DNA from: a candidate division KSB1 bacterium
Lineage (GTDB): Bacteria; Zhuqueibacterota; Zhuqueibacteria; Residuimicrobiales; Krinioviventaceae
Direction: 5' to 3'
Assembly: GCA_034521575.1 (NCBI GenBank)
Contig: JAXHMJ010000005.1
Location: 2,108,001 to 2,172,000 of the forward strand
Length of the DNA stretch: 64,000 nucleotides
Part shown: positions 12,200 through 64,000 of the stretch, piece by piece
Layout: every line of letters starts with the position of its first letter
How positions within the stretch are numbered: position 1 is the stretch's first letter
Notes under the pieces: model-generated
The model's input: the letters and a program-made list of their open reading frames with translations, nothing else
Database searches by the model: none
What the model was told of the DNA's origin: nothing
Program-made: the position numbers and the translations under genes

Positions 12200-15100
12200 T
12201 TATACAATACTTTGCAAGAACTTTTTCGCAATTTCAATATGAGAGGATCCTGATTCACCGCGCATCGTAAATTTCAACTTGTTTTGAGCCTGATCAAGTT
12301 GAAAAGAGTCTGGAACATGTTCAACCATATCAGCCAACCATTTCTGAAATTGTTCCCCTGTGGGTAAAACCTCATTATTAAACTCTCCATTAATCGCATC
12401 ATTGTCCACACTCAATTTTTCCACTCCGGCTTTGACGGCGTAACGTTTAAGATAGATATAATCCAAGAGATTTTGCGCCGGTTTGGGGAGCGGTCCAAAC
12501 CTGTCCAATATCTCATGATGAATCTGATCGATTTCTTTTATTGATTTTGTTTGAACCAGTCTGCGATACAAATCAACCCGTTCCGACGCCGAATGGACAA
12601 AATCACTGGGAAGATACGCGTTGATCGAAATCTTGATTCTGGCTTCAAATGGATCTTTGCTTTCTTCGGCTTGATCAAATGAATCGATATTCATTTCTTT
12701 GCGGACCTTTCTGATAGATTGTCTGATAATTTTGGTAAATAATTCGAATCCAAGTGCGTTGACAAAACCGGTTTGTTCCGCCCCAAAAATATTTCCGGCA
12801 CCACGTATTTCAAGGTCTCGCATGGCAATTTTATAGCCAGATCCCAGATGTGAATACTCTTGTATCGTTTGCAATCGTTTGATCGCATCCCGGGAGGGTT
12901 TCTTTGATTGTGGAATCAGCAAATAAGCGTAGGCTTGTTGCTGCGACCGCCCCACTCTTCCCCTTAACTGGTATAATTGTGATAACCCGAGTTTATCTGC
13001 ACGATTGACAATTAGCGTGTTGGCTTTGGGCATATCGATCCCGGACTCGATAATCATAGTTGACACCAATACTTGTACCTCGCCGCGCACAAATTTATGC
13101 ATCACAGTTTCCAGTTCATGGCCCTTCATTTGTCCGTGAGCGACGGCAATCGACACTTCCGGCACGATATCGTATAAAGTGGCAGCCATTCCATGAATGG
13201 ATTGAACCCGGTTGTGTACAAAAAACACCTGTCCTCCTCTATCAATTTCTTTCAGCACAGCCTCTCTGATCAGGTCACAATCAAAGCGGCTTACTTCGGT
13301 TTTAACCGGAAGACGGTTGTGAGGAGGTGTGTTAATAATCGACAAATCTTTTGCGCCAATCAGAGACATGTGCATTGTCCTCGGGATCGGAGTGGCCGAA
13401 AGTGTAAGAGTATCAACGGTCTCTTTAAGCAGCTTGAGTTTTTCTTTGTGCATAACCCCAAATTTTTGTTCTTCATCGACAATCAACAGACCCAAATCTT
13501 TAAACTTTATATCCTTTGACAAAAGTCGATGCGTCCCAATTAAAAGATCAATTTTTCCTTCGCCTATGTTTTCAATAATCTCTCTCTGCTGTTTTGCCGA
13601 TTTAAACCGTGATAACAGATCGATAGCCACAGGGAAAACTCTGTATGCGCTCCACAAAAGTCTCGTAATGCTGTTGTGCCAAAATAGTTGTCGGCACCAA
13701 CACACAGACCTGCTTGCCGTCATTAATTGCTTTGAAAGCTGCGCGCACCGCCACCTCGGTTTTCCCGTAACCAACATCTCCACAGATCAAGCGATCCATA
13801 GGTTGATTCTTTTGCATATCCTGTTTTATTTCAGTTACAGCGTTCAACTGGTCATAGGTTTCTTCAAACTGAAATGAGGCTTCAAGTTCCTTTTGCCATA
13901 TTGTATCTTCAGAAAATGTGTACCCCGTGCGTGCTTTTCTGGTGGCATAAAGTTTAATCAATTGTTCCGCAACCTCTTTCATTCGTTTTTTTGTACGCGT
14001 TTTCAGCTTTTCCCATTGCGCCGTTCCCAGTTTATTCAGAACCGGAACCACACCGTCGCGTGAACTGTATTTTTGAACCTGATCCATTTTTTCCAGAGGC
14101 ACATAAAGCTTATCCTGATCCTTGTATTCAACCACCAGACACTCACGCTCTTTTCCGTAAGCCTTGATCATGGTCAACCCCTTGAACAAACCAATACCGT
14201 GCTCTTCATGAACAATATAATCGCCTTTGTTGATCTGAAGCTGTTGTCTTAACGCAATTTGACGTTTGTCAAGTTTATCCGGTTTTGGAAATCGGATGCG
14301 GCTGTATATTTCACGATTGGTATACACATAAACCCCTTCATCCGGCCAATGAAATCCGCGTGCCACATTCAGGGTTTTAAAATCAAGCGGAGGGAACTCT
14401 TCCTGTTCAAAAAGATCCTGCAACCGTTTGCGTTGAGACTCCGATTCACACAACAGCGTAGCAACAATATTCTGATTATAAAGCTTATCCACCAGAGTTT
14501 TAAACAGGGCAAGATTTCCCCCGAAACGGTTATTTTCAAAAAAAGGAAACTGTATCCCTTTATTTGAGATTGAAACCGGTTCTATCTTACAAACAGCATT
14601 TCGTTCTATGTGATGATCCAGCTGTTCAGGCAGCCAGTAATAATCTTCATAATCTACATTTTCATCATGTTCCCGCACCTGCATGTCCCGCACACCTTTC
14701 ACTTCATCAGCCTGTGCACCACACAGCTGCGAATTATGAATAAAAACAAAAGGATCGCAATATTCAAAAAGGGTCGAATCCTGAGGATAATCAAGTAACG
14801 GCATTTCTTCGGGAGGAGTAAAATTTCCGCCGGCAAAGGGCGGTATAATGTAAAGTTCAGAACAGGGTTCAAGAGATTGTTGCGTCTCCACATCAAATTT
14901 ACGCATCGAATCCACTTCATCTCCGAAAAATTCGATACGATAGGGATGTGTGCTTTCAAAAAGGAAAACATCAACAATTCCGCCGCGCACACTCATTTCA
15001 CCCGGGCGGTCCACTCTGTCTTCACGCACAAATCCCATTTTAATCAAATTCTTGATAAAAGAATTAAACGGACGCACTGTATGCAAAGTCAGATGTATAA

Positions 15101-15431
15101 ATTGCTGTTTCACCCATTCCGGCTTGAATATTTTTTCCAACAAAGCATCAGGAGTTGTAATCACAAGACAAGGTTCTCCTGAAACAAGAGCTTTTAAAAC
15201 AGCCAAACGATGTCCCGTAACCGAACCCTGGGGTCCTAATTCTTTCCACATCTGATTACCGATAGCCGGATAATACAATATATTATCATCCGGCAACAGG
15301 ACACTCATATCATCCCGAAACTGAACAGCATCTTGCTCATTATCAAAAATCGACACAAAAACCCGTTTTTCCTCAAGGTAAAGCAGGGTTTGAAGAAAAG
15401 CAAACGAAGAACCGGGCAGCCCCTGAGCCAT
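12200..15431 (-). CDS. mfd: Transcription-repair coupling factor Mfd, frameshifted
   Basis: Two overlapping frames (13602-15431 and 12200-13783) make one Mfd of about 1077 residues, the family's normal length. The first holds the UvrB-like domain, the RNA-polymerase-binding region (GDYIVHEEHGIGLFKG), and Walker A GDVGYGKTEVA. The second holds the DEEQKFG box, GRVGRS and the C-terminal domain. Mfd is the DNA translocase that removes stalled RNA polymerase and recruits UvrA. The frame changes at the GGGAAAA run near 13632-13638, inside the segment expected to read SFPVAIDLLSRF. The frame stays open upstream to about 15521 without an ATG, so the N terminus may start further upstream than 15431. 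Confidence 0.9.
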
Positions 15432-18077: not shown

Positions 18078-19456
18078 TTATTTTCCGACACAAAAATTTG
18101 AAAAAATATTATTCAAAATATCATCTGATGTTACATATCCAGTTAATTGCCCCATTGAATCGAGGGCCGATCTTAAATCCAACGCAATAAATTCAGATGA
18201 GTAGCCCTGCTCTATACTCTCCCGCGCATGGGTGATAAATTCATAGGATTTGAGAATTGCATTATAATGGCGCGTCTTTGTCAAAATTTCAGTTTCGTGA
18301 ACCGGAAGTTTATTTTCTACATATTCTACAAGAGAAGATTCTAACGAATCTAATCCTTCTTTTGTTTCAGCAGATATAAGCAAGGCATCAGGGTTTTGTG
18401 CCTTTATTCTGGATTTTTCATAATCCGAAACAAGATCGATTTTGTTGTAAACATAATATGTTTTGCTGCCGGGTTTGAGCTTTTTGAAGAAATCGTGTCT
18501 GGCGCTGCTTTCCTGTGACAGGCTGTCAATAATATATAAAACAATATCGGCTTGTGATATCATTTCATAGGTACGCTGGATTCCGGCATTTTCGATTGTA
18601 TTGTTTCTGAGCGATGTAAACCAGCCGTATCTGTGATATAAAAAATAAAACCTCTAATATCCAAGGCTTCCTCTATAGTATCACGGGTTGTTCCTGGAAT
18701 ATCTGTAACAATGGCCCTATCTTGCTGCAAAAGTGTATTCATCAGGCTTGATTTTCCGGCGTTGGGTTTGCCGGAAATAACGAGCTTGACGCCTTCTTTG
18801 ACCAGTTTTCCGTAAGTAAAGGTGTCCAGAAGACTCTTTAATCTGTTTTTGAGAATATCCATTTGATCTGAAATAGTGCTGTAATCAGCCAGCTTAATAT
18901 CTTCATCGCTGAAATCAAGTTCTATTTCAAGCAACGAACATTGCTTGATAAGGGTTTCTTTAATAGCAGATAATTCTTTGGAAAGATCACCGTGTAGTTG
19001 ATGTTGGGATAGTTTAAGACTGGATTCAGATTGCGCATGGATTGTATCTGCAATAGATTCTGCCTGTAACAGATCTATTTTTCCATTTAAAAAAGCCCGC
19101 TTTGTAAACTCACCCGGTTCAGCGGGTTTGGCGCCGTTTAAAATTAACAATCTCAAAATATGCTGAACAACAAAGGCTCCACCGTGACAATGGATTTCTA
19201 TTATATGTTGTCCGGTATAAGAGCAGGGACTTTGGAATTTAAGAATGATCACATTATCGACGCTGTATGATCGCGTTGAATCAATAATAGTTCCGTTATA
19301 GCATTTTCGTTCCACCATATTCTTGACAGAAATATTTCCTGAATAAATTTTTTCAAGAATATCAAAGGCATCCGGACCAGAAAGCCGAACGATAGCAATA
19401 GCGCCTGTCCCCTTTGCGGTGGAAACCGCAGCAATTGTGTCATTCAAAGTATTCAT
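18078..19456 (-). CDS. mnmE: tRNA modification GTPase MnmE, frameshifted
   Basis: Two frames (18560-19456 and 18078-18563) make one MnmE of about 458 residues. The N-terminal formyl-THF-binding domain begins DTIAAVSTAKGTGAIA. The G domain has SGKPNAGKSSLMN (P-loop), GTTRDT and DTAG, and the C terminus ends with the conserved Cys-x-Gly-Lys (FCVGK). The frame is lost just after DTAGLHRSET (about 18595-18606). One missing A in the GAAAC run, or the ACAAT tandem duplicate there, would explain it. MnmE partners MnmG, encoded just downstream. Confidence 0.92.

Positions 19457-39465: not shown

Positions 39466-39469
<4 letters not shown>
38723..39469 (+). CDS. deoC: Deoxyribose-phosphate aldolase
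   Basis: A 248-residue TIM-barrel enzyme. It has MIDHTLLKP, the KVIIETCFL strand, the Schiff-base Lys in FVKTSTGFG, and a C-terminal KAAGGIRSYQDA phosphate site. It splits deoxyribose 5-phosphate to glyceraldehyde 3-phosphate and acetaldehyde in deoxynucleoside salvage. Its stop overlaps the stop of the converging gyrA by 4 bases, leaving no room for an intergenic terminator. Confidence 0.95.
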
Positions 39470-43858
<4,389 letters not shown>

Positions 43859-43870
43859 GTTTTACTCAAG

Positions 43871-44158
43871 TTAGTGAAAGCGAATATCCTTGATTATTCC
43901 ATTGCCGTATTTCTCATTGATGCGTTTTAAAATCGTGTGTTTCTGAAACAGCAATTCTGTTCTCCAGGTTGTACTCTTGACCCGTACGTATAAAATCGAG
44001 TTATCAATCCGTTCTGCCTGGGTCACATTGGACACGGACTGACCGACAATGTCCGGCCAGTCCTGTATGATGCGATGCTGTTTGATCTTGCTGTCCATGC
44101 CCATGTCTTTGAACATGCTTTCCAGCGTCTCGCCAATGTGTTTCGGCCCTTTTTTCAT
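43871..44158 (-). CDS. dciA: DciA/DUF721 helicase-loader-type protein
   Basis: A 95-residue DUF721 protein (IGETLESMFKDMGMDSKI, IQDWPDIVGQSVSNVT, and VKSTTWRTELLFQKHTIL). DciA is the ancestral helicase operator that helps load DnaB at the origin in bacteria without DnaC/DnaI. Its start overlaps the recF stop (ATGA) and gyrB follows after 12 bases, the common dnaN-recF-dciA-gyrB order. Confidence 0.88.
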   Translation of the reverse strand: MKKGPKHIGETLESMFKDMGMDSKIKQHRIIQDWPDIVGQSVSNVTQAERIDNSILYVRVKSTTWRTELLFQKHTILKRINEKYGNGIIKDIRFH

Positions 44159-45272
44159 TGCTTTGACACCACACCGTTTTCAACAAAGTAAACGCCCGAC
44201 TCTTCTGCTTCGGACGATGTAAACAGTTTTTTGTAATCCAGGGATGTGCCGGTTACAAACACCTGGCTTTTGTCCTTAAAAAGACTCATCACCTGTCCCG
44301 CCCGGTCGTTATCCAGCTCGGCGTACAGATCATCCAGGAGTATGATCGGAGGCGTGCCGGACGCTCTATGCAAAAAACGGCTTTCCGCCGCCTTTAAACT
44401 TACCAGGACACTCTTGTGTTCACCCCGGGATCCGTATCGCCGGATGTCCCGTGATCCGATGTAAAATACAAATTCATCCCGATGGGGACCGGCAAGCGAT
44501 GTCCCGCGCCACTTTTCCTTGCCTGAAATATCGGCAAGTTTTTGTTCAAGACAAATTTTTGCTGTTTCCGGAGCATCGCAGGCGACATTGGGCATATATT
44601 CGATACGTAAAGGATCGGGTTGACTGCTGACTTGGGTATAATTCGCTTTCAATATTTCGTTCATATCGTTGACCATGGCCCATCTGGCCTGCATTAGTTT
44701 TGCTCCCCATTGTATCAGCTGTGTATTCCAGGCCTCAAGCTGAGTCTGGTTTTTCGTATTGCCTACGGCAATTTCACTGAGAATTAAAGTCACTGGACAG
44801 AACCCGTTCGTATTGTTTTAAATCATCGAGATACCGGGTTGAACTCTGGGAGAGCAATATATTGAAATAACGCCGCCGGAACGAGGGAGAACCGTCGGTA
44901 ATGGTATAATCATCCACGTTCAAAATAACAATCGGAAATTGCCGAATCGTTTGAAACGGGTTAATCCGTTTTCGTCCAATTTTGCTTGTGTTTTCCTTCT
45001 TGTTTATGATAACGAATGCCAATATGGTGAGACAAATTGGTCTTTCGCACAAAGTCACCCTCTACAAAGTATTCAGTCCCCTCGAAAGGTACACACTCGT
45101 AATCTTCCTTGGTGCGAAAACTTTTTGTAAAACACAGCAAGTAGATCGTTTCGATCAGATTTGTCTTTCCTTGTGCATTGTCTCCAAAAATAAAGTTCCG
45201 GGTCGGATGAATGTCAAGCCGGGTTTCCCGTAAATTACGGAAATTGTGAATCTTTAGAGAGCGAAGAAGCAT
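44155..45272 (-). CDS. recF: Recombination mediator RecF, frameshifted twice
   Basis: Three frames (44961-45272, 44774-45058, 44155-44793) make a RecF of about 370 residues. They hold Walker A GDNAQGKTNLIE (residues 31-42), the IVILNVDDYTITDGSPSFRRR block, the signature GPHRDEF...SRGEHK and Walker B IILLDDLYAELD. The breaks lie near 44965-44980 and 44775-44800. It loads RecA at gaps with RecO and RecR. It lies between dnaN and dciA. Confidence 0.92.
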
Positions 45273-45290
45273 TTTACATTATACCGGAAC

Positions 45291-46438
45291 CTATTCGGTT
45301 TCTTCGGGTTCCTGTTCATTGATGCGGATCGGCATCAGCAACATCGTGATATCCTCTTCATCTGAAACATCCGCAGGTCTCAGGATCCCGGCGCTGCCAC
45401 TATCTTTGAGTTCAAACACGATCTCTTTGGTGTCAATATGCCGCAAAACATCCATCAAATAGGCTGAATTGTACGCGATCTGAAGCCAATCCGAATTAAA
45501 TTGCGATGGCATCACTTCTTTTCCTTCAGCGCCGATTTCAATATCTTCGGAATGAATGGTCACCTGGTCATTGGTGATGGATAAACGCACCTGATTGGTT
45601 AGAGAGTTGGTAAAGATAGAAATACGTCGCAAAGTTGAGATCAGCAAATCGCGGTCAACCTGGAGGTACTTGTCATTATTCTGCGGAAGCACCCGTTCGT
45701 AATTGGGATAGGTTCCGTTGATGAGTTTTGAGTGAATGACCGCATTCGTCAACTTAAATACAATATGATCCTCACCGATTTGAACCGCAACATCCTCTTC
45801 GCTGTTGAGGTTGCGTGTCATCAGATTGAGTGCTTTGGTCGGAACAATGACTTTGACCTGGGTGTCATCCGGAGCCTGAAATTTTTTATAAACGACTTTG
45901 GACATTCGGTGGCCATCTGTACCCACAAAGGTAATATCCATCGAGTCGATTCTCGACATTGATACCGGGTGAGCGCAGGACGAAGTTCATCAGTCGAGAA
46001 CAGCAAAAAATGGTCTTTTGCAGTCAGCCTGTTGAGAATATTGCCGTTGATCTTGAACTCTTGCTCGCTTTCTTCAATGTTAATATGCGGAAAATCTTCT
46101 TTTGGCTGTGTCGATATTTTGTACTCACCCATTTCCGTTTTAAGGAGAATTTTTTCGCCGTCAATGGAGGACACGTTGATCGGTATATCCGGGAGTTCCT
46201 TGACAATTTCCTGAAGCATTTTGGCTGGTATGGCCACAACGCCGCCTTCTTCAGCATCGACCTGCAGCGTATGGGTTACAGATATCTCAAGATCAGTTCC
46301 TGCTGCAACTCGGTTTTGTCCTCTTTCCCAGTCCGTTAATATACAAGTTAAAATCCCAATTGTGGTTTTTTGCGGAACCACTCCGACCACTTTATGCAGA
46401 GCATTATTCAGGTCGGTTCTGGAGATTGTAAAATTCAT
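45291..46438 (-). CDS. dnaN: DNA polymerase III sliding clamp (beta), frameshifted
   Basis: Frames beginning at ATG 46438 (GAGGAGGAG just upstream) and ending at 45291 give about 380 residues, normal for DnaN. N-terminal MNFTISRTDLNNAL, the DELRPALT segment and the second-domain VGTDGHRMSKV are typical. The C terminus, where clamps usually end MPMR(L), reads LLMPIRINEQEPEETE, an acidic extension of about nine residues past the canonical end. The frame changes near 45955-45975. Confidence 0.92.
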
Positions 46439-46565
46439 ATTCTCCTCCTCAACAGTTACAAGCGATGCTGCGGGGTTGAGCAGCATAAAATTTAATATAA
46501 AAAATAGGAAAAACTTTTAAATATTTCAAGTATTTACTCACATTAAAATCACTTTTTCAAAATAA

Positions 46566-48282: not shown

Positions 48283-48933
48283 CTACCCTTTCAACATGAC
48301 CAGAATGAAATATAGCAGCTGTGACAGATAGACGTGAATAATAATTTGCGAGTTGTTTGCTTCAACGGCTTTGATTTTTTTCCCAAAAAGCATTAACAAA
48401 TAACCGATCAGGAACCAGGCCGCATAATTTTGTATTGGGATGCCGTTTTCCCAGACCCAATAGTTGAGTTGTCCGGCCGGGGATTCCATAAAGAAATCAA
48501 ACACCACCATAAATATCGCTGTCAATATCGGGTACCATCGTGCCTTGTCCGTCACACGCTGGGCCAGCACGAGGGAGCTCAATTCCATATTCAACCAGGC
48601 AAATCCAATGGCAATAGGCACCCCTCCGATTTGCGGTTTTAATGTGGTCCCGTATTGATACTCACCAAATATCCATCCTGTGTTGACTCCCACCCATTCT
48701 ATAAAAATACCGGTTGCTATAATTGCCAGAGACCAGATTGCGATACGAAGCTTGTTGGAGCTGTGACGCCAATATTCATAAAATACGATGATCGACAACA
48801 AGATCAGCAGAGGTGAAGCCATCAGACGCATCTCGTTTTGAAAGCGTCCGAGGATATTCCATATGCCTCCGGTGATCATGAGAAAATAGATCGCAAGAAT
48901 GATGATCCATGTATACCTTTTTTGTTTTGTCAT
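48283..48933 (-). CDS. cruF: CruF-like carotenoid 1',2'-hydratase (DUF422 family)
   Basis: A 216-residue integral membrane protein with about seven hydrophobic segments and the DUF422/carotenoid-biosynthesis-protein motifs: EWVGVNTGWIFGEYQY, IGGVPIAIGFAWLNM and FDFFMESPAGQLNYWVW. Family members hydrate the end double bond of acyclic carotenoid ends, giving the hydroxyl or neighbouring position used for glycosylation. Its start overlaps the glycosyltransferase stop (ATGA). It is the last gene of the carotenoid operon. Confidence 0.85.
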   Translation of the reverse strand: MTKQKRYTWIIILAIYFLMITGGIWNILGRFQNEMRLMASPLLILLSIIVFYEYWRHSSNKLRIAIWSLAIIATGIFIEWVGVNTGWIFGEYQYGTTLKPQIGGVPIAIGFAWLNMELSSLVLAQRVTDKARWYPILTAIFMVVFDFFMESPAGQLNYWVWENGIPIQNYAAWFLIGYLLMLFGKKIKAVEANNSQIIIHVYLSQLLYFILVMLKG

Positions 48934-50051
48934 GACTGATCCTTTGAAAATTCAACAGTCCGTCCCTTCCATTGAATACTGCCGGTATGATAACGTATAC
49001 ATGAATGAACGGCAATGGCCATGACCGAGACAATTCCCAGCGGATTCAAAAGAGTGCTGGCGCCGAAGGGATGTTTAAATTTTAATGCAAGCACGCCTCG
49101 CTGCAGTATAGCTATCCCAATAGCTGACAGAGCCAAAAGATAAAAATCCTGAAACCACACCAGAATCCAGGGGGCGAGGTACACGCTGAACAGCAGGACT
49201 AAAAACAGGATCAACCCTGCAAAATGATACCCCATCAGTCCGTACACATTTTTTGAAAACCCAAGCCACACTTCCTGCCAGGAATGATACATGTGTCCAT
49301 ACACAGCGCCGCTACCGGCGGCGGTCAGTATTTTTTCTCCTTTCTGTTTGGCACGGCGCGCCAGTTCTGTATCTTCCACAATGTGTGATTTCACTGTAAT
49401 ATGCCCGCCGATGCGCTCATATCCCCGGCGCGAAAACGCCAGCCATTGACCGTTTGCCGCCGCCATTGAAGTAAAATCCAATAGATACGTAAATCTCAGA
49501 ACAAGAAAACTGTAAACAAACATATCGATGACCGGTATGACCAGCTTTTCTCCCAGAGTTTGCGTCGTTTGCTGGGGAAAAGCAGAGAACAAACTCAATT
49601 GCAGCCGCTGCATCCAGCCCAGCGTACGGCTGACGGCAAACGACTCGTAAAAGTTATCCGCATCTGTAAAGATAAAAAACTCACCGTTGGCCTGTTTTGA
49701 CAGCTGATGACACGCCCAGTTTTTCCCGGTCCAGCCGACGGGCAAATCTTTTCCCGGAATGACCGTAATGCTCGGATGCGCGATCTTGTATATCTCTTCA
49801 AGCGTGCCATCTGTAGAATGGTCATTCAGTACAAGAATTTCCAGATTCGGATAATCCTGCTGAACCAGGGATAACAGGCAGCGCCCGATGTTGTCGCGTT
49901 CGTTGCGAACCGGGATGCATATGGACACCAGTGGTTTGGCCGGGGGAGCCGGTCCCCGTCGGACCAGGGGGGCGGTGAGCACATTGATCAGTGTAATCAA
50001 AACAAAGAATGAAAGCATGGCGAGGATGATATAAAGATAGATTGTGATCAT
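48930..50051 (-). CDS. GT2 glycosyltransferase, probable carotenoid glycosyltransferase (CruG/CrtQ-like)
   Basis: A 373-residue membrane glycosyltransferase. An N-terminal membrane segment is followed by the GT2 domain (VSICIPVRNERDNIG, LNDHSTDGT, the FTDADNF metal site and SHIVEDTELARRAKQKG) and then two or three C-terminal membrane segments (about 275-340). CruF/CruG pairs of this type make glycosylated hydroxy-carotenoids in cyanobacteria, and CrtQ does the glycosylation in staphyloxanthin synthesis. The sugar is unknown. It lies 2 bases after the CrtB-PlsC gene. Confidence 0.82.
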   Translation of the reverse strand: MITIYLYIILAMLSFFVLITLINVLTAPLVRRGPAPPAKPLVSICIPVRNERDNIGRCLLSLVQQDYPNLEILVLNDHSTDGTLEEIYKIAHPSITVIPGKDLPVGWTGKNWACHQLSKQANGEFFIFTDADNFYESFAVSRTLGWMQRLQLSLFSAFPQQTTQTLGEKLVIPVIDMFVYSFLVLRFTYLLDFTSMAAANGQWLAFSRRGYERIGGHITVKSHIVEDTELARRAKQKGEKILTAAGSGAVYGHMYHSWQEVWLGFSKNVYGLMGYHFAGLILFLVLLFSVYLAPWILVWFQDFYLLALSAIGIAILQRGVLALKFKHPFGASTLLNPLGIVSVMAIAVHSCIRYHTGSIQWKGRTVEFSKDQS

Positions 50052-50053
50052 CG

Positions 50054-51676
50054 CTAATTCCTTTGACGCGATCCTGAATGCCGTTCGTTAATGGATGGCT
50101 TGCCGTGGATCAGGATATGATTTTGTATCCCCGATTCGATTTTATGCTGCATTCGGTTTAACAATTCGCAATGCTGTGTTTGAAGGTCAGACAATGCCGG
50201 AAAAGAGCCGGCTGTGATTGAAAAGGGGGCTCCAAACTCTATAAAAACATCCGGATATTGATGTTGTGTAAACTCGCACCGGATCCCGCATTGACAAATC
50301 TGCAACGGTCGGTTCAGTTTTTTTAGCAGCAGCTGAATACCGCGTTTGTACGTCAGGTCTTGAGATGACCAGGGCAGCAGCTCGCCCTGGGGGAAAATGC
50401 AGACCATCGGCGGCTCTGATAAATTAAGCAGTGACAGAGTATATTTTATCGACTGCAGTGTCCCGGTAACACGTTCCGGATTGATTGAATAAGCTCCGAC
50501 ATGCTTGAAAAACGGATTTTCGCAAAGCTGGGATTCCAGCATCATGACATAAAGCATACGGTTGTACAGATGCTGATTTAAAAGGTAGATAAAAAAACCG
50601 TCCCACCAGGTGCTGTGATTGGGAAGCACAAGCACAGGCTGATCCTTTTGAAAAACAGGAGCTGTGTTCAGCAGCTGCATACTGTGAAAATGTTTGCAAA
50701 ACAGGCGGTTCAGATAATACTTAAAGATCAGATGAGCCTGCCTGCGAGTGTTCTCGTTTTGATCATATTCGATTTGCGGTTTATGTCGTTCGGTCATGAG
50801 ACGATAGGGGGTTTTAAGCTTTTCACAAAGCAATATCCAGAGTTTCTTACGAAGCGATACATAGACCCGTTCTGTAAACGGATTGAACTGGTTTTCTTGT
50901 ATTTTTGACAAGATACCTCTGTATATTTCAGCTGCTGCATAAATAGCAAATCTTGAAGACCGATGCAGCATCGGGATACCGGCTTTAGATTGTTCATAAT
51001 ATTGATGCGCCCGTTTCACCTGAAATTGCATCAAACGCTGCATTGAATCATTCATATCTTCCTGGATGATGGTTTCATCCGTGAGCCCGAACGCCTTGAG
51101 CTCCTCCTGTGGCAGGTATATACGTCCCAGTTCTTTATCTTCCTTGATGTCGCGCAGAATATTGGTCAGCTGCAGGGCAATGCCGAGTTTTTCCGCATAA
51201 TGAAATGCGGAATCAGTGTTGTACCCAAGCACAAAAGTCATCATGATCCCCACAACACCGGCCACGCGGTAGCAGTATTCATATAAATCATCAAATGTTG
51301 CATACCGGGTATGGGATATATCCATGGATATGCCGTCCAACAGACTGAGCGGATATTCTTTGGGAATTCCGAAATGCCTGGCCACGATGATGTAGGCGGA
51401 AACAGCGGGGTGTTCCGATTGCCCCGTACGGTAGGCAAGGTTCACTTCATCGTACAGGTGATTAATTTCATTGAGGATTTCATGTTTTTCCCGGTATCTG
51501 ATGCGGTCACTCAGATTATCCGCGTATCGGCAGAATCCGTACAGACCAAATGTTGCCCATTGCACGCGTCGCGGCAGCATGCGGGTGGATAAATAAAAGC
51601 TTTTTGAATGCTCCCGCGTCATCACCTTGGTGTAAACAAAAGACGAGCGGCTATGTCTGTCTATGGCAAGTTTCAT
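50054..51676 (-). CDS. crtB: Phytoene/squalene synthase fused to a PlsC-type acyltransferase
   Basis: A 540-residue fusion. Residues about 15-280 are a phytoene synthase: first Asp motif CRYADNLSD (49-57) and second DIKEDKELGRIYLP (176-189). After a linker, residues about 335-520 form a lysophosphatidate-acyltransferase-type domain with the HX4D box NHSTWWD (353-359) and FPQGE near 427. The first half should condense two GGPP to phytoene. The second half probably acylates, and in this operon a carotenoid glycoside is the likely acceptor (like CruD/CrtO roles). No frame break lies between the halves. Confidence 0.88.
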   Translation of the reverse strand: MKLAIDRHSRSSFVYTKVMTREHSKSFYLSTRMLPRRVQWATFGLYGFCRYADNLSDRIRYREKHEILNEINHLYDEVNLAYRTGQSEHPAVSAYIIVARHFGIPKEYPLSLLDGISMDISHTRYATFDDLYEYCYRVAGVVGIMMTFVLGYNTDSAFHYAEKLGIALQLTNILRDIKEDKELGRIYLPQEELKAFGLTDETIIQEDMNDSMQRLMQFQVKRAHQYYEQSKAGIPMLHRSSRFAIYAAAEIYRGILSKIQENQFNPFTERVYVSLRKKLWILLCEKLKTPYRLMTERHKPQIEYDQNENTRRQAHLIFKYYLNRLFCKHFHSMQLLNTAPVFQKDQPVLVLPNHSTWWDGFFIYLLNQHLYNRMLYVMMLESQLCENPFFKHVGAYSINPERVTGTLQSIKYTLSLLNLSEPPMVCIFPQGELLPWSSQDLTYKRGIQLLLKKLNRPLQICQCGIRCEFTQHQYPDVFIEFGAPFSITAGSFPALSDLQTQHCELLNRMQHKIESGIQNHILIHGKPSINERHSGSRQRN

Positions 51677-53154
51677 ATATTCAAATCCTGAACAATGAGA
51701 CTTTCTGTTGTTTCAGCTGTCATCATCACACCGGGAAGACCGGCCCCCGGATGCGTGCTCGCCCCCACCAGATATAGCCGATCCACATCTTCGCTGCGGT
51801 TGTGCGGACGGAAAATGGCAGTTTGCATGAGCCTGGGCTCCACTTCCCAGGCGCTGCCGTACGTATTATTGTTCTTTTGTTCAAAATCTCTGGGGGTGAA
51901 TACCCGGCTTGTCTCTATATTGGATCTGAAATCGGTTAACCCGAATGATTCTTCAAGATATTTCAAAATACTGTTTTTATACAATTCCGCCTGCTGCGAC
52001 CAGTCAATATCCGCCTGTAAATTGGCAACCGGACTCAGTATATACATACTCTCACAACCCTCGGGCGCCATACTGTCATCAGTGCGTGAAGGCACGTAAA
52101 GGTACAGGGAAAAATCATCCGGCAATATCTTTCGGTCAAAAATATCACGCACCAGTTCCTTGTAGCGATGTGAAAGAACCAAAGTATGATGTTTGAGTTT
52201 ATCGTACTTTTTGCGCACACCTAAAAAAATCAAAAAGGCGCTCATGGAATAGTCGATGCGGTCTAAACGTTTATTATTCCATTTTCGTCGATATTGGGGG
52301 GCGATCAGTGTCCGGTAAGTGTGAATAAAGTCGGCGTTCGAGACCACGGCATCGGTTTCAAAGACATTCCCCTGAACCTGAACCCCCGCCGCCGCTCCGT
52401 TTTTGACGACAATCTGTTCGACCGGGGACTGCACATGAATCTCTCCTCCCAGATCGCTAAAGAGATCCCGAAGCGCTGATATAAACGTATACATTCCTCC
52501 TTTTGTATACCAGACACCGCCGGTTTTTTCCAGATAGGGGATCATTTGGTACACGGCCGGCGCCCGGAACGGGCTGCCGCCGATGAATAGGGGGTGAAAT
52601 GAAAAAGTAAATCGGCTGTTCTGATGATGAAAATAACGTTTGGTGAATGAAAAAGACGGTAAAAGGGCGCCCAGTTTCAAAGCGCGCGGCGCAAATCCCA
52701 TCATCGAGCTCCAGTTCATAAACGGTTTGGAACCCAATTTTTCACCAATCACGGCATCATGAATTTTTTTCGAAGCCAACATAAATCGATCATACGCTTC
52801 GGCATCACGCGTATCAAATTGGGCGAGTTGTTGTTTCATTTTTTCATGATCGGAGGTATAGTCAAGGTGGCGGCCGTCATGGAAATAGATCCTGTAAAAC
52901 GGATCCAGTGCAATTAAATCCAGATAATCCCGCATGTCCCGGCCAGCTGCTTTATAAAGGTCCCGGATCATTTCTGGGGCGGTGATCAGGGTCGGGCCCA
53001 TGTCGAATGTATATCCGTTTTCTTTGAACGGATAGGCATGACCGCCTACCTGTTCGTTCTTTTCAAAAAGTTTTACCTGAAATCCTTTGGCCTGCAATCG
53101 AATACCCAGTGACAAACCTGCGATTCCGGATCCGATAATTGCGATTGTTTTCAT
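51673..53154 (-). CDS. crtI: Phytoene desaturase (CrtI family)
   Basis: A 493-residue FAD enzyme. It has the N-terminal dinucleotide fold IIGSGIAGLSLGIRLQAKG, then GPTLITAPEM, and the C-terminal CrtI signature LYLVGASTHPGAGLPGVMM. It converts phytoene stepwise towards lycopene at the membrane. The stop overlaps the CrtB-PlsC start by 4 bases (ATGA). A second CrtI relative lies 7 bases upstream, so each probably does a different step. Which is the phytoene desaturase is inferred from its close coupling to the phytoene synthase. Confidence 0.88.
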   Translation of the reverse strand: MKTIAIIGSGIAGLSLGIRLQAKGFQVKLFEKNEQVGGHAYPFKENGYTFDMGPTLITAPEMIRDLYKAAGRDMRDYLDLIALDPFYRIYFHDGRHLDYTSDHEKMKQQLAQFDTRDAEAYDRFMLASKKIHDAVIGEKLGSKPFMNWSSMMGFAPRALKLGALLPSFSFTKRYFHHQNSRFTFSFHPLFIGGSPFRAPAVYQMIPYLEKTGGVWYTKGGMYTFISALRDLFSDLGGEIHVQSPVEQIVVKNGAAAGVQVQGNVFETDAVVSNADFIHTYRTLIAPQYRRKWNNKRLDRIDYSMSAFLIFLGVRKKYDKLKHHTLVLSHRYKELVRDIFDRKILPDDFSLYLYVPSRTDDSMAPEGCESMYILSPVANLQADIDWSQQAELYKNSILKYLEESFGLTDFRSNIETSRVFTPRDFEQKNNNTYGSAWEVEPRLMQTAIFRPHNRSEDVDRLYLVGASTHPGAGLPGVMMTAETTESLIVQDLNI

Positions 53155-53161
53155 TCTTTCC

Positions 53162-54628
53162 TCAATTGTGCGAATGTCTTATCAGCAGGTCGGCGGCGTG
53201 TTTACCGGAGAGCAGCGCCAGGGGGACACCGCCGCCGGGATGTGTAGAGGCTCCGGCAAAGTAGAGTCCCTTGACCTGACGGCTTTTATTCGGAGGCCGC
53301 TTGAACGCCATATTTCGGTCGTTGGACGAAATGCCGTATATACTGCCCTTGTTGCTTCCGTATCTACTGTAAAAATCCAGTGGTGTAAACATCTGTTCGA
53401 ATTTTATTTGATGCTTGATATCAAACCCATGCTTTGCAAGTTTTTGCAAGGTAACGCGGCGCATTCGGTTGATTTGTTCGGGCCAGTCCTGTCCGGCCAG
53501 AAACGGCATGTTCAGCAGCACGAACCAATTTTCATAACCGTCCGGAGCATGTGATTTATTCCGCTTACTGGTCATGGCTACGTAAATCGTTGGATCGTCC
53601 GGCGCATGCCCGGCAGAAAGCGTCTGAAATTCCTGTTGATAGTTTTTTGAAAAAAAGATATTATGATGCCCAAGCTCTTGATGCTGACCGCGTACGCCCC
53701 AGAAAAAGACCAGTCCGGAGGTAGACGGCTCAAACGATTCGAGCTTTTTGGTATATTTTATTTCCGAATCGAGTAATGTTTGATGCGCCGTCACCACATC
53801 AGCATTGCAGATAATATGGTCTGCATTAATCGTTTCTCCATTGACTTTGATGCCCTGAACGTGTTTTTGATGCAGAATTTGTTCCACCGGAGCATTTTTC
53901 ACAATGTCTACACCCAGCGAGTCTGCCAGTGTTTCCAGCGCTTCGATGAGTTTGTACAAGCCGCCTTTGATGTAATAACCTCCCAGACCGTATTCAACAT
54001 AGGGAATAATGTTCAAAGTGGCCGGAGCCTGATACGGATCACTGCCGTTATACGTACAGTATCGGTCAAAGAGTTGTATGATACGCGAATCCTTGAAAAA
54101 CGAAGAGACGCGTTCATGAACAGTGTGAAACGCATCCAGTTTGCCGAGTTTGAACAGCATCGGCAGATTTTTCAATTTCAAGGTTTCGGACGGTTCGTGA
54201 ATGGGAGTAAATAAAAAGATGTCAGCCGTCAGATCATAAAGCTGTTTGCTGTACTCGAGAAACGATTCGAACTGATCCGCGTCCCGTTCACAAAGCGGGG
54301 CCATGGAACGGTGCATGGCCGCCGGCTGAGTGAAGGCATCCAGCACGGCTCCGTCCGAGAAAAAATAGCGGCAAAGGGGATCTATGGGTTCGAACTCGAT
54401 AAAATCCGCTGCATCGGCTCTGCAATACCGGAACAGGTCTTTGATGACAAACGGCATGGTGATCAGGGACGGCCCGGTATCGAACGTATATCCATTGGCT
54501 CTCAGTCGGTTCATCTTGCCGCCGAGAGATTCGGTTTTCTCAAACAGCTGTACGCTGTAACCGGAGGCCGCCAGACGCAGAGCAGCCGCAAGTCCGCCCA
54601 ATCCGCCGCCAATAACGACAACTTTCAT
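53162..54628 (-). CDS. Second CrtI-family oxidoreductase, probably CrtD-like hydroxycarotenoid desaturase
   Basis: A 488-residue FAD protein with VIGGGLGGLAAALRLAASG, the FDTGPSLITMP segment, and C-terminal LYFAGASTHPGGGVPLALLSGKH. It resembles CrtD-type 1-hydroxycarotenoid 3,4-desaturases in the YNGSDPYQAPATLNIIPYVE block. That would fit a hydroxy-carotenoid made by the CruF-like enzyme. A ketolase or a second desaturase remains possible. It is 45 bases after phr and 7 before crtI. Confidence 0.8.
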   Translation of the reverse strand: MKVVVIGGGLGGLAAALRLAASGYSVQLFEKTESLGGKMNRLRANGYTFDTGPSLITMPFVIKDLFRYCRADAADFIEFEPIDPLCRYFFSDGAVLDAFTQPAAMHRSMAPLCERDADQFESFLEYSKQLYDLTADIFLFTPIHEPSETLKLKNLPMLFKLGKLDAFHTVHERVSSFFKDSRIIQLFDRYCTYNGSDPYQAPATLNIIPYVEYGLGGYYIKGGLYKLIEALETLADSLGVDIVKNAPVEQILHQKHVQGIKVNGETINADHIICNADVVTAHQTLLDSEIKYTKKLESFEPSTSGLVFFWGVRGQHQELGHHNIFFSKNYQQEFQTLSAGHAPDDPTIYVAMTSKRNKSHAPDGYENWFVLLNMPFLAGQDWPEQINRMRRVTLQKLAKHGFDIKHQIKFEQMFTPLDFYSRYGSNKGSIYGISSNDRNMAFKRPPNKSRQVKGLYFAGASTHPGGGVPLALLSGKHAADLLIRHSHN

Positions 54629-54673: not shown

Positions 54674-55993
54674 TTAGCTTTGTGCTGCTTTTTTATAAAC
54701 GCGCAAGGCTCGCTCCCGGCAGGTTCGCAAATCCACCATAGGTTGGGGATAATGCGGCGCTCCGTACTCGCCGACCCAGCGTTTGATATATTCCAGCTTT
54801 TTGTCGTATTTGCGCATCTGGGTGATGGGATTAAATATCCGGAAATACGGAGCAGCATCGCAGCCGGTGCCGGCGGCCCATTGCCAGTTGCCGTTATTGG
54901 CTGCAAGGTCGTAATCCAGCAGCTTTTCTGCGAAATATCGTTCTCCCCAGCGCCAGTCGATGAGCAAAGTCTTGGTGAGAAAACCGGCGGCAATCATTCG
55001 GACCCGGTTGTGCATAAATCCGGTTTCGTTTAATTCCCGCATGCCCGCATCTACAATGGGAAACCCGGTTTCACCACGGCACCATGTCTCAAACTCTTCC
55101 GGATCATTGTTCCATTCAATGGTTTCGTACTTGCTGCGAAACGGTTGTGTTTCAACCCTCGGATAATGATGCAGGATCATCATATAGAATTCGCGCCAAA
55201 TCAATTCATCGAACCAGATTTCATTGAGATGAAATCCGTCCTGCATGGCCCGGCGGATACTCTGAGAGCCGAAGCGCAAATGCGGACCCAGCTTGGAAGT
55301 TCCCTGCATTGCGGGAAAATCGCGTCTGTTGTGATAATGCCGGATGATCTCGTGCGGAATCTCTGGTGTTGAAAACGCTGTTTGAGTGGATTCGAAACCG
55401 ATTTGTTCAAGCTGCGGAAATGCAAGGGGATTTGTTTTGATAAACTGGCTGAAATGAGATGCGGTGTCAAATACGTGACCAAGGAGCTTTTGGCCTATCC
55501 ATTCCTGTTTCCAGCGGTTCTTGTAGGGGGTATATACCCTGTAAGGCGTCCCGTCTTTTTTGAGAATCTCGTCTTTTTCAAATATAACCTGGTCTTTGTA
55601 GGAGTGGAAGGGAATCCCGCGAGATTTTAAATACTCTGACACCGCCTGATCGCGTTTGATGGCATAGGGTTCATAATCTGTGTTTGTATAAACCGCCTTG
55701 ACTGAAAATTCCGAACACAGGGTTTGGAACAGCTGCACCGGATCTCCGCGTCGAACCCAGAGCGAGCTGTTCATATCGGACAAGCGGTTATACAGATCTT
55801 GTAAAAGAGTGTGAATAAAATCGACGCGCAGATCATACGGATCCGGCAAATCCGCCAGAATATGATCATCAAACAAAAATACCGGCAGTACGGGATATCC
55901 GCTGGTCAATGCCTGCGTCAGTCCTGCATTGTCTTCGAGCCGAAGATCTCGCCGAAACCAAAATACTGCAATGTCTTGATCGACTGTCATCAT
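54674..55993 (-). CDS. phr: Deoxyribodipyrimidine photolyase
   Basis: A 439-residue class I CPD-photolyase-type protein. The N-terminal antenna domain opens IAVFWFRRDLRLEDN. The FAD domain has the LGPHLRFGSQSIRRA, WREFYMMIL, GFPIVDAGMREL and WRWGERYF / NNGNWQWAAGTGCDAAPYFRIFNP segments that bind FAD and hold the electron-transfer Trps. It reverses UV-made thymine dimers using blue light. It is the first gene of the carotenoid operon, a pairing that points to light-stress control. Confidence 0.94.
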   Translation of the reverse strand: MMTVDQDIAVFWFRRDLRLEDNAGLTQALTSGYPVLPVFLFDDHILADLPDPYDLRVDFIHTLLQDLYNRLSDMNSSLWVRRGDPVQLFQTLCSEFSVKAVYTNTDYEPYAIKRDQAVSEYLKSRGIPFHSYKDQVIFEKDEILKKDGTPYRVYTPYKNRWKQEWIGQKLLGHVFDTASHFSQFIKTNPLAFPQLEQIGFESTQTAFSTPEIPHEIIRHYHNRRDFPAMQGTSKLGPHLRFGSQSIRRAMQDGFHLNEIWFDELIWREFYMMILHHYPRVETQPFRSKYETIEWNNDPEEFETWCRGETGFPIVDAGMRELNETGFMHNRVRMIAAGFLTKTLLIDWRWGERYFAEKLLDYDLAANNGNWQWAAGTGCDAAPYFRIFNPITQMRKYDKKLEYIKRWVGEYGAPHYPQPMVDLRTCRERALRVYKKAAQS

Positions 55994-60252: not shown

Positions 60253-61702
60253 TTATCCGACACTGCCTTCCAGGCTGATGCCCAGCAGTTTTTGAGCTTC
60301 CACGGCAAATTCCATCGGCAGTTCAGCGAACACCTCTTTGCAGAATCCATTCACAATCATCGATACAGCGTTTTCAGGGGTAATGCCGCGTTGATTGCAG
60401 TAAAAAATCTGGTCTTCTCCGATTTTCGAAGTGGTGGCTTCATGCTCCATGGTGGCTGTGCTGTTTTTAACCTCGATATAAGGAAACGTATGCGCGCCGC
60501 ACTGGTCGCCGATCAACAGAGAGTCACATTGGGAAAAATTGCGAGCGTTTTCTGCGTTTTTTGTAATTTTTACCTGTCCGCGGTAGCTGTTCTGGCTGTG
60601 ACCGGCCGAAATTCCTTTGGATACAATGGTACTGCTGGTGTTTTTGCCGATATGGATCATCTTGGTGCCCGTGTCCGCCTGCTGATAATTATGGGTCATC
60701 GCCACAGAGTAAAATTCACCAATCGAGTTGTCACCTTCCAGCACACAGCCGGGGTATTTCCAGGTAATGGCTGAGCCGGTCTCCACCTGAGTCCAGGAGA
60801 TCTTTGGAGTTTACCCCCCGACAATGTCCGCGTTTGGTAACAAAATTGTAGATACCACCCTTTCCGGTTTCATCTCCGGGATACCAGTTCTGAACCGTTG
60901 AGTATTTAATGCGTGCATTATTCATGGCAATCAGCTCGACCACGGCTGCATGCAGCTGATTCTCATCCCGCCGTGGGGCGGTACAGCCTTCCAGATAGCT
61001 GACATAGGCGTCATCTTCGGCAATGATCAAAGTGCGTTCAAACTGTCCGGTGAACTGTGCATTGATCCTGAAATACGTGGACAGTTCCATGGGACACTTT
61101 ACACCTTTGGGAATATAAGCAAACGATCCGTCACTGAATACGGCTGAATTCAAGGCGGCAAAATAATTGTCATCAGGCGGCACCACCATGCCCAGATACT
61201 GTTTGACCAGATCCGGATGGTTCTGCACAGCTTCCGAAAAGGAACTGAATATAATACCCAGGTCCGCAAGCTTTTCGCGAAACGTAGTGGCCACGGACAC
61301 GCTGTCCAAAACCGCATCGACAGCCACGCCGGTGAGCACTTTTTGCTCTTCGAGCGGAATGCCCAGCTTGTTATAAGTTTCCAGTATGGCCGGATCCACA
61401 TCCTCAAGACTCTTGGGTCCTTTTTTGTGTTTCTTGGGCGAAGAGTAATAGACAATATCCTGATAATTAATCGGAGCAATAGACAGGTTGGCCCAGTCAG
61501 GCTGTTCCATGTTCAACCACTTGCGATAGGCGTTCAAACGCCATTCCAGCAGCCAGTCCGGCTCGTGTTTCTTGGCTGAAATCAAACGAATCACGTCCTC
61601 GTTCAGCCCCCTGCCGACGTCTTCGCTGTCTATTTCGGAAACAAATCCGTATTTGTATTTTTGTTGTGTGATATCCTTCAAAGTGTCTATTTCATGAGGC
61701 AT
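60253..61702 (-). CDS. sufB: Fe-S cluster assembly protein SufB, frameshifted
   Basis: Frames 60731-61702 and 60253-60786 join into about 482 residues, normal for SufB. It shows [53 protein letters not shown] and the C-terminal [12 protein letters not shown]. The frame is lost near 60785-60800, where GVNSK should continue into [19 protein letters not shown]. It follows the Rrf2 regulator by 14 bases. SufB is the scaffold where clusters form. Confidence 0.94.
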
Positions 61703-62479: not shown

Positions 62480-63220
62480 CTATTTATTTTTCTGTCGATA
62501 AGATGGTCCTTCCATCAGTATAATCTCCGAGTTTTAACGAGCCGGTCTGCGATGGCTTGAGCGATTACAGCACTTTGAAAGATCTCTCCCCAGCGGCCAA
62601 AGGGCAGATTGGTGGTCACGATTGTACTCGACACGTTCATGCCTGGCACTGAGCACCTGGAAAAAAAGATTTGATGACTGTTCGTCAAGCGAAAGAAAAC
62701 CCAACTCGTCACAAACAAGCAGACTTGGAGTTTGATAAAATTTTAGTTTTTTTAACAACGACTGATCAGCTTGAGCGGCAATGAGGTGATTAATCATATC
62801 AATAGCTGTTGTGAAGAGTACACGTTCATTTTTCAAACAGGCTTGATAAGCTATGGTTTTTGCTAATCGGGTTTTTCCGGTTCCGGGGGCGCCAATAAAG
62901 ATCACGTCTTGTTTTTTATGAATAAAATCACATTCGGACAAACGCAAAACAAGGGATCGGTTCTGTTGTCGGGAGACATGGAATTTAAAATCAAAGTCAC
63001 TTGGCAAGCATTTATCAATCAAATGCGACGCTTTGATTCTGTTTTCAACAGAGCGTTTCCAGCGTGATTCGTTTTCCAGGTCAAGCAAATAATCGAGCAG
63101 CCACAGAAAGCCGTTGTTCTGCTCTTTTTCTTTTTCAAAGGCATCTTCGAGATATTCGGCCATGGTATTGAGTCGCAACTGCTGCAATTTGTGGATTGTA
63201 TTTTCAATTTTTGTCATCAT
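62480..63220 (-). CDS. istB: IS21-family helper ATPase IstB, frameshifted twice
   Basis: About 246 residues when joined across two breaks. The main frame (62534-63220) has Walker A IFIGAPGTGKTRLAKTIAY and the LLVCDELGFLSLDEQSSN Walker B region. A second frame gives STIVTTNLPFGRWGEIF to IADRLVK, and a third ends EIILMEGPSYR. Breaks lie near 62640 and 62527. IstB is the AAA+ helper that selects IS21 targets with the transposase IstA. It overlaps istA by 17 bases. Confidence 0.88.
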
Positions 63221-64000
63221 TGTTCCTGCTTTTTTTCAAAGTAATGGCATCATAGATTAACAGATCGGGTTCCTGTAATTGTAACTGATTGAGCGTTTCA
63301 TCTTTGAGGGTAACTTTGGGGTAATATGTTTTAATATGCATTTTTTGATGCAGGATATTCTCAACATAATCGACGCCATAGGCTTTGTATTTGAGGGTTA
63401 TTTCAACGGCCTCCACAACTGCTTTGGCTCCATATTGTTCTCTTAATTCCAGGAGATGACTGGATGCCCGGGAAAGGCTTTTCCCGGCCTTGGCCAAATT
63501 TTCGATGAATAGTTTGATGGGTTCACCCATTGAAAACAAGAGTTGTTCTTGTCTGGTTAACCTTGCCTTTTTACGTGTTTTCAAAAGTTCTGAAATATGG
63601 TTCGGATTTTCAATAACAGCCCGGCGTTTCCAGCTTCGCGTGTGTACAGCAACAATTTTGTTTTTATGGCCTGCCCAAATTGTATGGTTATCCGCTTTGA
63701 CACTGACTGTTTTACCGGCCATCCACCAAGGCGCTGAATAATAATTTGCATCAAATTTAAACCGGCAATCGGAATGGACTTTAGCTTCTGAATGATCTCT
63801 GGTATCCGGCAATACATCCGGCAATGGACGCAGGGCTTTCGGCTGAAAACGTTCAACCGGTTTTTCATTCGTTGTTGCGTGAATACGTGTATTTGCAATG
63901 TGATCGCGCCATTTGCAGGCTTGCACATTTACATCATCCAGATCGGCAAAGGTGCGGCACGGCCAAAAGTTATAGCGAACGTAATGAACACCGCCTTTTT
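63204..64000 (-). CDS. istA: IS21-family transposase IstA, C-terminal part
   Basis: Open from the window end to a stop at 63204 (265 codons), so the N terminus and catalytic Asp residues lie beyond 64000. Visible are HYVRYNFWPCRTFADLDDVN, ERFQPKALRPLPD, the small beta domain (YYSAPWWMAGKTVSVKADN) and a C-terminal helix region typical of IstA after the integrase core. It is the DDE transposase for IS21 elements. Confidence 0.88.
   Translation of the reverse strand, partial: KGGVHYVRYNFWPCRTFADLDDVNVQACKWRDHIANTRIHATTNEKPVERFQPKALRPLPDVLPDTRDHSEAKVHSDCRFKFDANYYSAPWWMAGKTVSVKADNHTIWAGHKNKIVAVHTRSWKRRAVIENPNHISELLKTRKKARLTRQEQLLFSMGEPIKLFIENLAKAGKSLSRASSHLLELREQYGAKAVVEAVEITLKYKAYGVDYVENILHQKMHIKTYYPKVTLKDETLNQLQLQEPDLLIYDAITLKKSRNNDDKN

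Follow-up and report, generated by a model that had tools for sequence, protein, structure and literature searches.

An open frame joining phytoene synthase and acyltransferase domains in a KSB1 bacterium is very probably two operon genes merged by assembly errors

Introduction

The window analysed here, a stretch of 64,000 nucleotides from a candidate division KSB1 genome assembly, contains an ATG-initiated single open frame of 540 codons (50054–51676, reverse strand) in which a CrtB-type domain is followed by a PlsC-type acyltransferase domain (AT). The locus raises the question of whether one protein in this lineage carries both the first and the last steps of a carotenoid glycoside-ester pathway, as a preliminary description of the sequence had proposed, or whether two genes have been run together. 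The uninterrupted frame, taken from the frame listing of the window, is true of the sequence text. Its status as one gene was not confirmed, and a real fusion is very improbable.

Gene content of the operon

The frame lies among carotenoid genes, all on the reverse strand, which are listed here with crtB and AT as separate features.

48283–48933, reverse strand: CruF-type carotenoid 1,2-hydratase (PF04240, E 6e-29; TIGR03460 below cutoff)
48930–50051, reverse strand: GT2 glycosyltransferase, CruC/CruG/HpnB-like (PF00535; NCBIfam HpnB and CruG matches below cutoff)
50054–50766, reverse strand: PlsC-type acyltransferase AT (PF01553, alignment A2, AlphaFold model; a separate gene in all relatives)
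50765–51676, reverse strand: crtB, SQS_PSY family, phytoene/dehydrosqualene-synthase type (PF00494; natural end expected near residues 301–308)
51673–53154, reverse strand: CrtI-type phytoene desaturase (TIGR02734, 541 bits, above cutoff)
53162–54628, reverse strand: CrtD-like 3,4-desaturase of the CrtI family (NF042421, 408 bits, below cutoff; TIGR02734, 377 bits, above cutoff)

Overlaps of 4 nt join crtI to the start of crtB and GT2 to cruF. The carotenoid setting suggested earlier was borne out, with CrtI, CrtD, CruF and GT2 as neighbours and an association of AT, GT2 and CruF that is kept across several phyla. Given these neighbours, and since no lycopene cyclase was recognised in the operon of the window, its product is most likely an acylated glycoside of an acyclic hydroxy-carotenoid, as judged from gene context. 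A gene of the DNA photolyase/cryptochrome type (54674–55993) adjoins the carotenoid operon and also occurs near the operon in three of the loci from relatives; photolyase and carotenoid genes possibly form a light-linked gene set.

The two halves of the frame

Both domains were recovered from the same frame by Pfam, and the catalytic motifs of both halves are intact at the positions first noted. SQS_PSY (PF00494) matched residues 21–276 with an E value of 4e-76, which places most of the CrtB half in this family, and both Asp-rich motifs are present (DNLSD, residues 53–57; DIKED, residues 176–180). Relatives of this half in the PDB include phytoene synthase 5iys and CrtM. The NCBIfam equivalog models CrtB, HpnC and HpnD all scored below cutoff. 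The real crtB product is most likely a stand-alone CrtB, which would presumably make phytoene.

In the second half, the acyltransferase family PF01553 matched residues 342–434 (E 3e-8, above cutoff), and the motifs, in the numbering of the fused frame, are HX4D (HSTWWD, residues 354–359) and FPQGE (residues 428–432). The H and D of the HX4D motif are invariant in all 54 sequences of AT alignment A2. A search of PDB sequences with the AT profile gave nothing useful, and structural relatives came from a fold search. The AT half modelled alone with AlphaFold had a mean pLDDT of 95.6, and the top Foldseek matches of this model were PlsC (5kym, E 1e-6) and GPAT. VIA-align superposed the model on GPAT 8e4y (Z 16.2, rmsd 2.9, 201 aligned), on GPAT 1iuq (Z 15.2) and on PlsC of Thermotoga maritima, 5kym (Z 13.8, rmsd 3.6, 191 aligned). 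The model gives the AT half the LPLAT fold, and by its motifs and PF01553 match this half is of the PlsC type. It shares HX4D and FPxGE-type motifs and the predicted fold with PlsC/GPAT acyltransferases but differs from them in its low identity (12–15 %) and in its place in a carotenoid operon, and this place makes a glycosyl carotenoid the probable acceptor. The real AT is most likely a stand-alone enzyme acylating the sugar placed by GT2 on a CruF-hydrated acyclic carotenoid, the substrate being suggested by context.

Gene arrangement in relatives

Contigs of other genomes were scanned with an alignment of AT sequences (A1), giving 80 AT loci from KSB1, Poribacteria, Calditrichota, Ignavibacteria, Kapabacteria and a few other groups. 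AT occupied its own frame, of approximately 180–340 codons from stop to stop, in every one of these 80 loci, and in none was it joined to crtB in one frame. At all 20 of the relatives' junctions that were inspected, AT was its own gene. A search of relatives with the whole protein likewise found the two halves as adjacent but distinct genes. The cross-genome search for the domain pair that had been called for returned no uninterrupted pair: there was no other continuous match over both halves in a search of the whole phylum (82 genomes), and none in a second phylum (40 genomes). Two loci with seemingly long frames over both halves were rejected on finding stops between the genes, and five matches that spanned both halves contained internal stops, being separate genes in the same frame. 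A literature search for a CrtB-acyltransferase fusion found none, which is weak evidence given the limited literature covered.

The commonest gene order was crtD-crtI-crtB-AT-GT2-CruF (36 of 80 loci), and AT adjoined GT2 and CruF in most loci. Many loci retained AT-GT2-CruF without an adjacent crtB, and several had AT and GT2 without an adjacent crtB. In the carotenoid operons of seven loci, crtI was followed directly by AT, and within the fetched stretch no crtB was recognised between the two. Where crtB and AT were neighbours they lay on the same strand and were tightly packed, the distance from the crtB stop to the AT start being −8 or −4 nt in 30 of 50 measured pairs. With overlaps of only 4–8 nt, slips of one or two bases suffice to merge the two frames.

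An acyltransferase start in another frame

The region in which the two frames meet was compared with the N-termini of AT proteins encoded by separate genes. Two features were located.

50752–50766, reverse strand: out-of-frame AT start ATGATCAAAACGAGA (MIKTR), +1 relative to the fused frame
50720–50785, reverse strand: junction joining the crtB and AT frames, with 38 nt, not 36, from the AT ATG to the 'IF' codons

Among 88 distinct separate AT proteins, the typical N-terminus reads M-I-x-A, position 2 being I in 84 proteins and position 4 being A in 79. The spacing M-x11-[ILVFA][FL]-xx-Y is exact in 85 of the 88, in which the initial M precedes the conserved 'IF' by exactly 12 codons. In the window, a start encoding MIKTR begins at 50766 on the reverse strand and lies 38 nt upstream of ATC TTT, the 'IF' codons, against a family spacing of 36. 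When AT was begun at this position and a frame shift was allowed, the profile was matched from its position 1 with 287.5 bits, against 277–280. The MIKTR site ranked 21 among 127,964 positions scored on both strands, and the chance of an equally good AT start within approximately 3 nt of the expected site is roughly 1e-3; by itself the match is not overwhelming. The ATG falls at residue 304 of the fused frame, and CrtB proteins end mostly at window-equivalent residues 301–308 in 79 relatives.

We claim that the frame relation is disturbed at the junction, and make no claim as to which bases are wrong. A single net indel downstream of the MIKTR start codon would give a crtB/AT overlap of approximately 44 nt, against the 4–8 nt measured in relatives; a second small indel, a few codons upstream, is required to recover the usual ATGA overlap.

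Frameshifts in the assembly

The DNA next to the operon contains a block of essential genes in pieces.

39466–46486, reverse strand: gyrA, gyrB, recF and dnaN, split genes whose profile-consecutive pieces lie in different frames

Profile matches placed at least two breaks in gyrA and showed dnaN, recF and gyrB to be split as well. Elsewhere in the window, mfd, mnmE and sufB were likewise divided into pieces of one profile in different frames, the frameshift regions in essential genes being 39466–46486, 12200–15431, 18078–19456 and 60253–61702. Beyond the window, one contig carries rpoB with one break and rpoC with two, and each of these genes is a single open frame in relatives with a complete copy. 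Breaks in so many essential single-copy genes cannot all be genuine, so indel errors must be numerous in this assembly. Long-read assemblies are known to suffer from indels that break genes (PMC12007338), and from its five contigs and the error pattern we infer that this assembly is of that kind. Novelty claims based on frames or stops in this window need care. At the right end of the window (62534–63926), two frames resemble, by eye, an IS21-type transposase and its helper ATPase.

Discussion

We consider it about 85 % probable that the apparent fusion is two neighbouring operon genes merged by small assembly indel errors, with the junction at approximately 50720–50785, where tightly packed crtB and AT would have been run into one frame. 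This reading is favoured because no relative examined has the fusion, a family-like AT start is visible in another frame and the assembly is rich in frameshifts. Counting against it, the other operon genes (crtD, crtI, GT2, cruF and phr) are unbroken, and a single indel leaves the atypically long overlap of approximately 44 nt. A genuine fusion established in the lineage, in which a bifunctional protein tethers AT to phytoene synthase and so perhaps keeps the pathway at the membrane, would agree with a frame that is open in the assembly and has both domains complete, with genes whose adjacency on one strand in relatives is the usual route to fusion, and with the existence of a fusion of AT to a CruF-type hydroxylase in Thermomicrobium roseum (PMC2615216). 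It is nonetheless very improbable, as none was found in any relative, the assembly is frameshift-rich and an out-of-frame AT start should decay in an old fusion. That start would be explained as well by a real but very recent frameshift as by a sequencing error, the frames having then been fused in the organism with a product that may or may not work; but essential genes nearby and elsewhere carry like frameshifts that are necessarily errors, which makes error the cheaper cause and a recent mutation less probable still. The indel at the junction is thus inferred to be a sequencing error. A true bifunctional CrtB-acyltransferase in this one KSB1-type lineage, physically coupling pathway entry to final acylation, is unlikely, and the proposal that one protein performs the first and last steps was left unsupported by the two-gene arrangement of relatives, the AT start and the state of the assembly.

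With the merger of two genes as the preferred reading, the locus shows clearly how false fusions of tightly packed operon genes can arise in a contiguous assembly through indel errors. A cheap check is to seek the start codon of the partner gene in other frames and to tally the essential genes that are split in the vicinity. The operon itself is real: it is conserved, is of the acyclic-carotenoid glycoside-ester type and has its own acyltransferase. It is common to KSB1, Poribacteria, Calditrichota and others, and points to acylated carotenoid glycosides in little-studied phyla.

Comparison with known systems

The CruF-CruC-CruD pathway of Salinibacter and Chlorobaculum resembles the operon in having a CruF-type hydratase, a GT2 and a separate acyltransferase, together with CrtB and CrtI. 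It differs in that the operon of the window has two CrtI-family desaturases and no recognised lycopene cyclase. By its operon context, AT may correspond to CruD. In Salinibacter, CruF is not fused to CruD (PMC2615216), and acyl glucosyl carotenoids are produced by Rhodothermus marinus (PMC5822342). The earlier statement that these enzymes are separate in known pathways held for the pair CrtB and AT in every relative seen; it failed for AT and the hydroxylase, since trd_1162 of T. roseum is a 1,1′ hydroxylase (CruF-type) with a C-terminal acyltransferase domain (PMC2615216). Like the frame studied here, trd_1162 joins an acyltransferase to another enzyme of the carotenoid glycoside ester pathway, but its partner is a CruF-type hydroxylase and not CrtB, and it was published from a complete genome. 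Given this precedent, a CrtB-AT fusion, if true, would be a variant of acyltransferase fusion, not a new kind.
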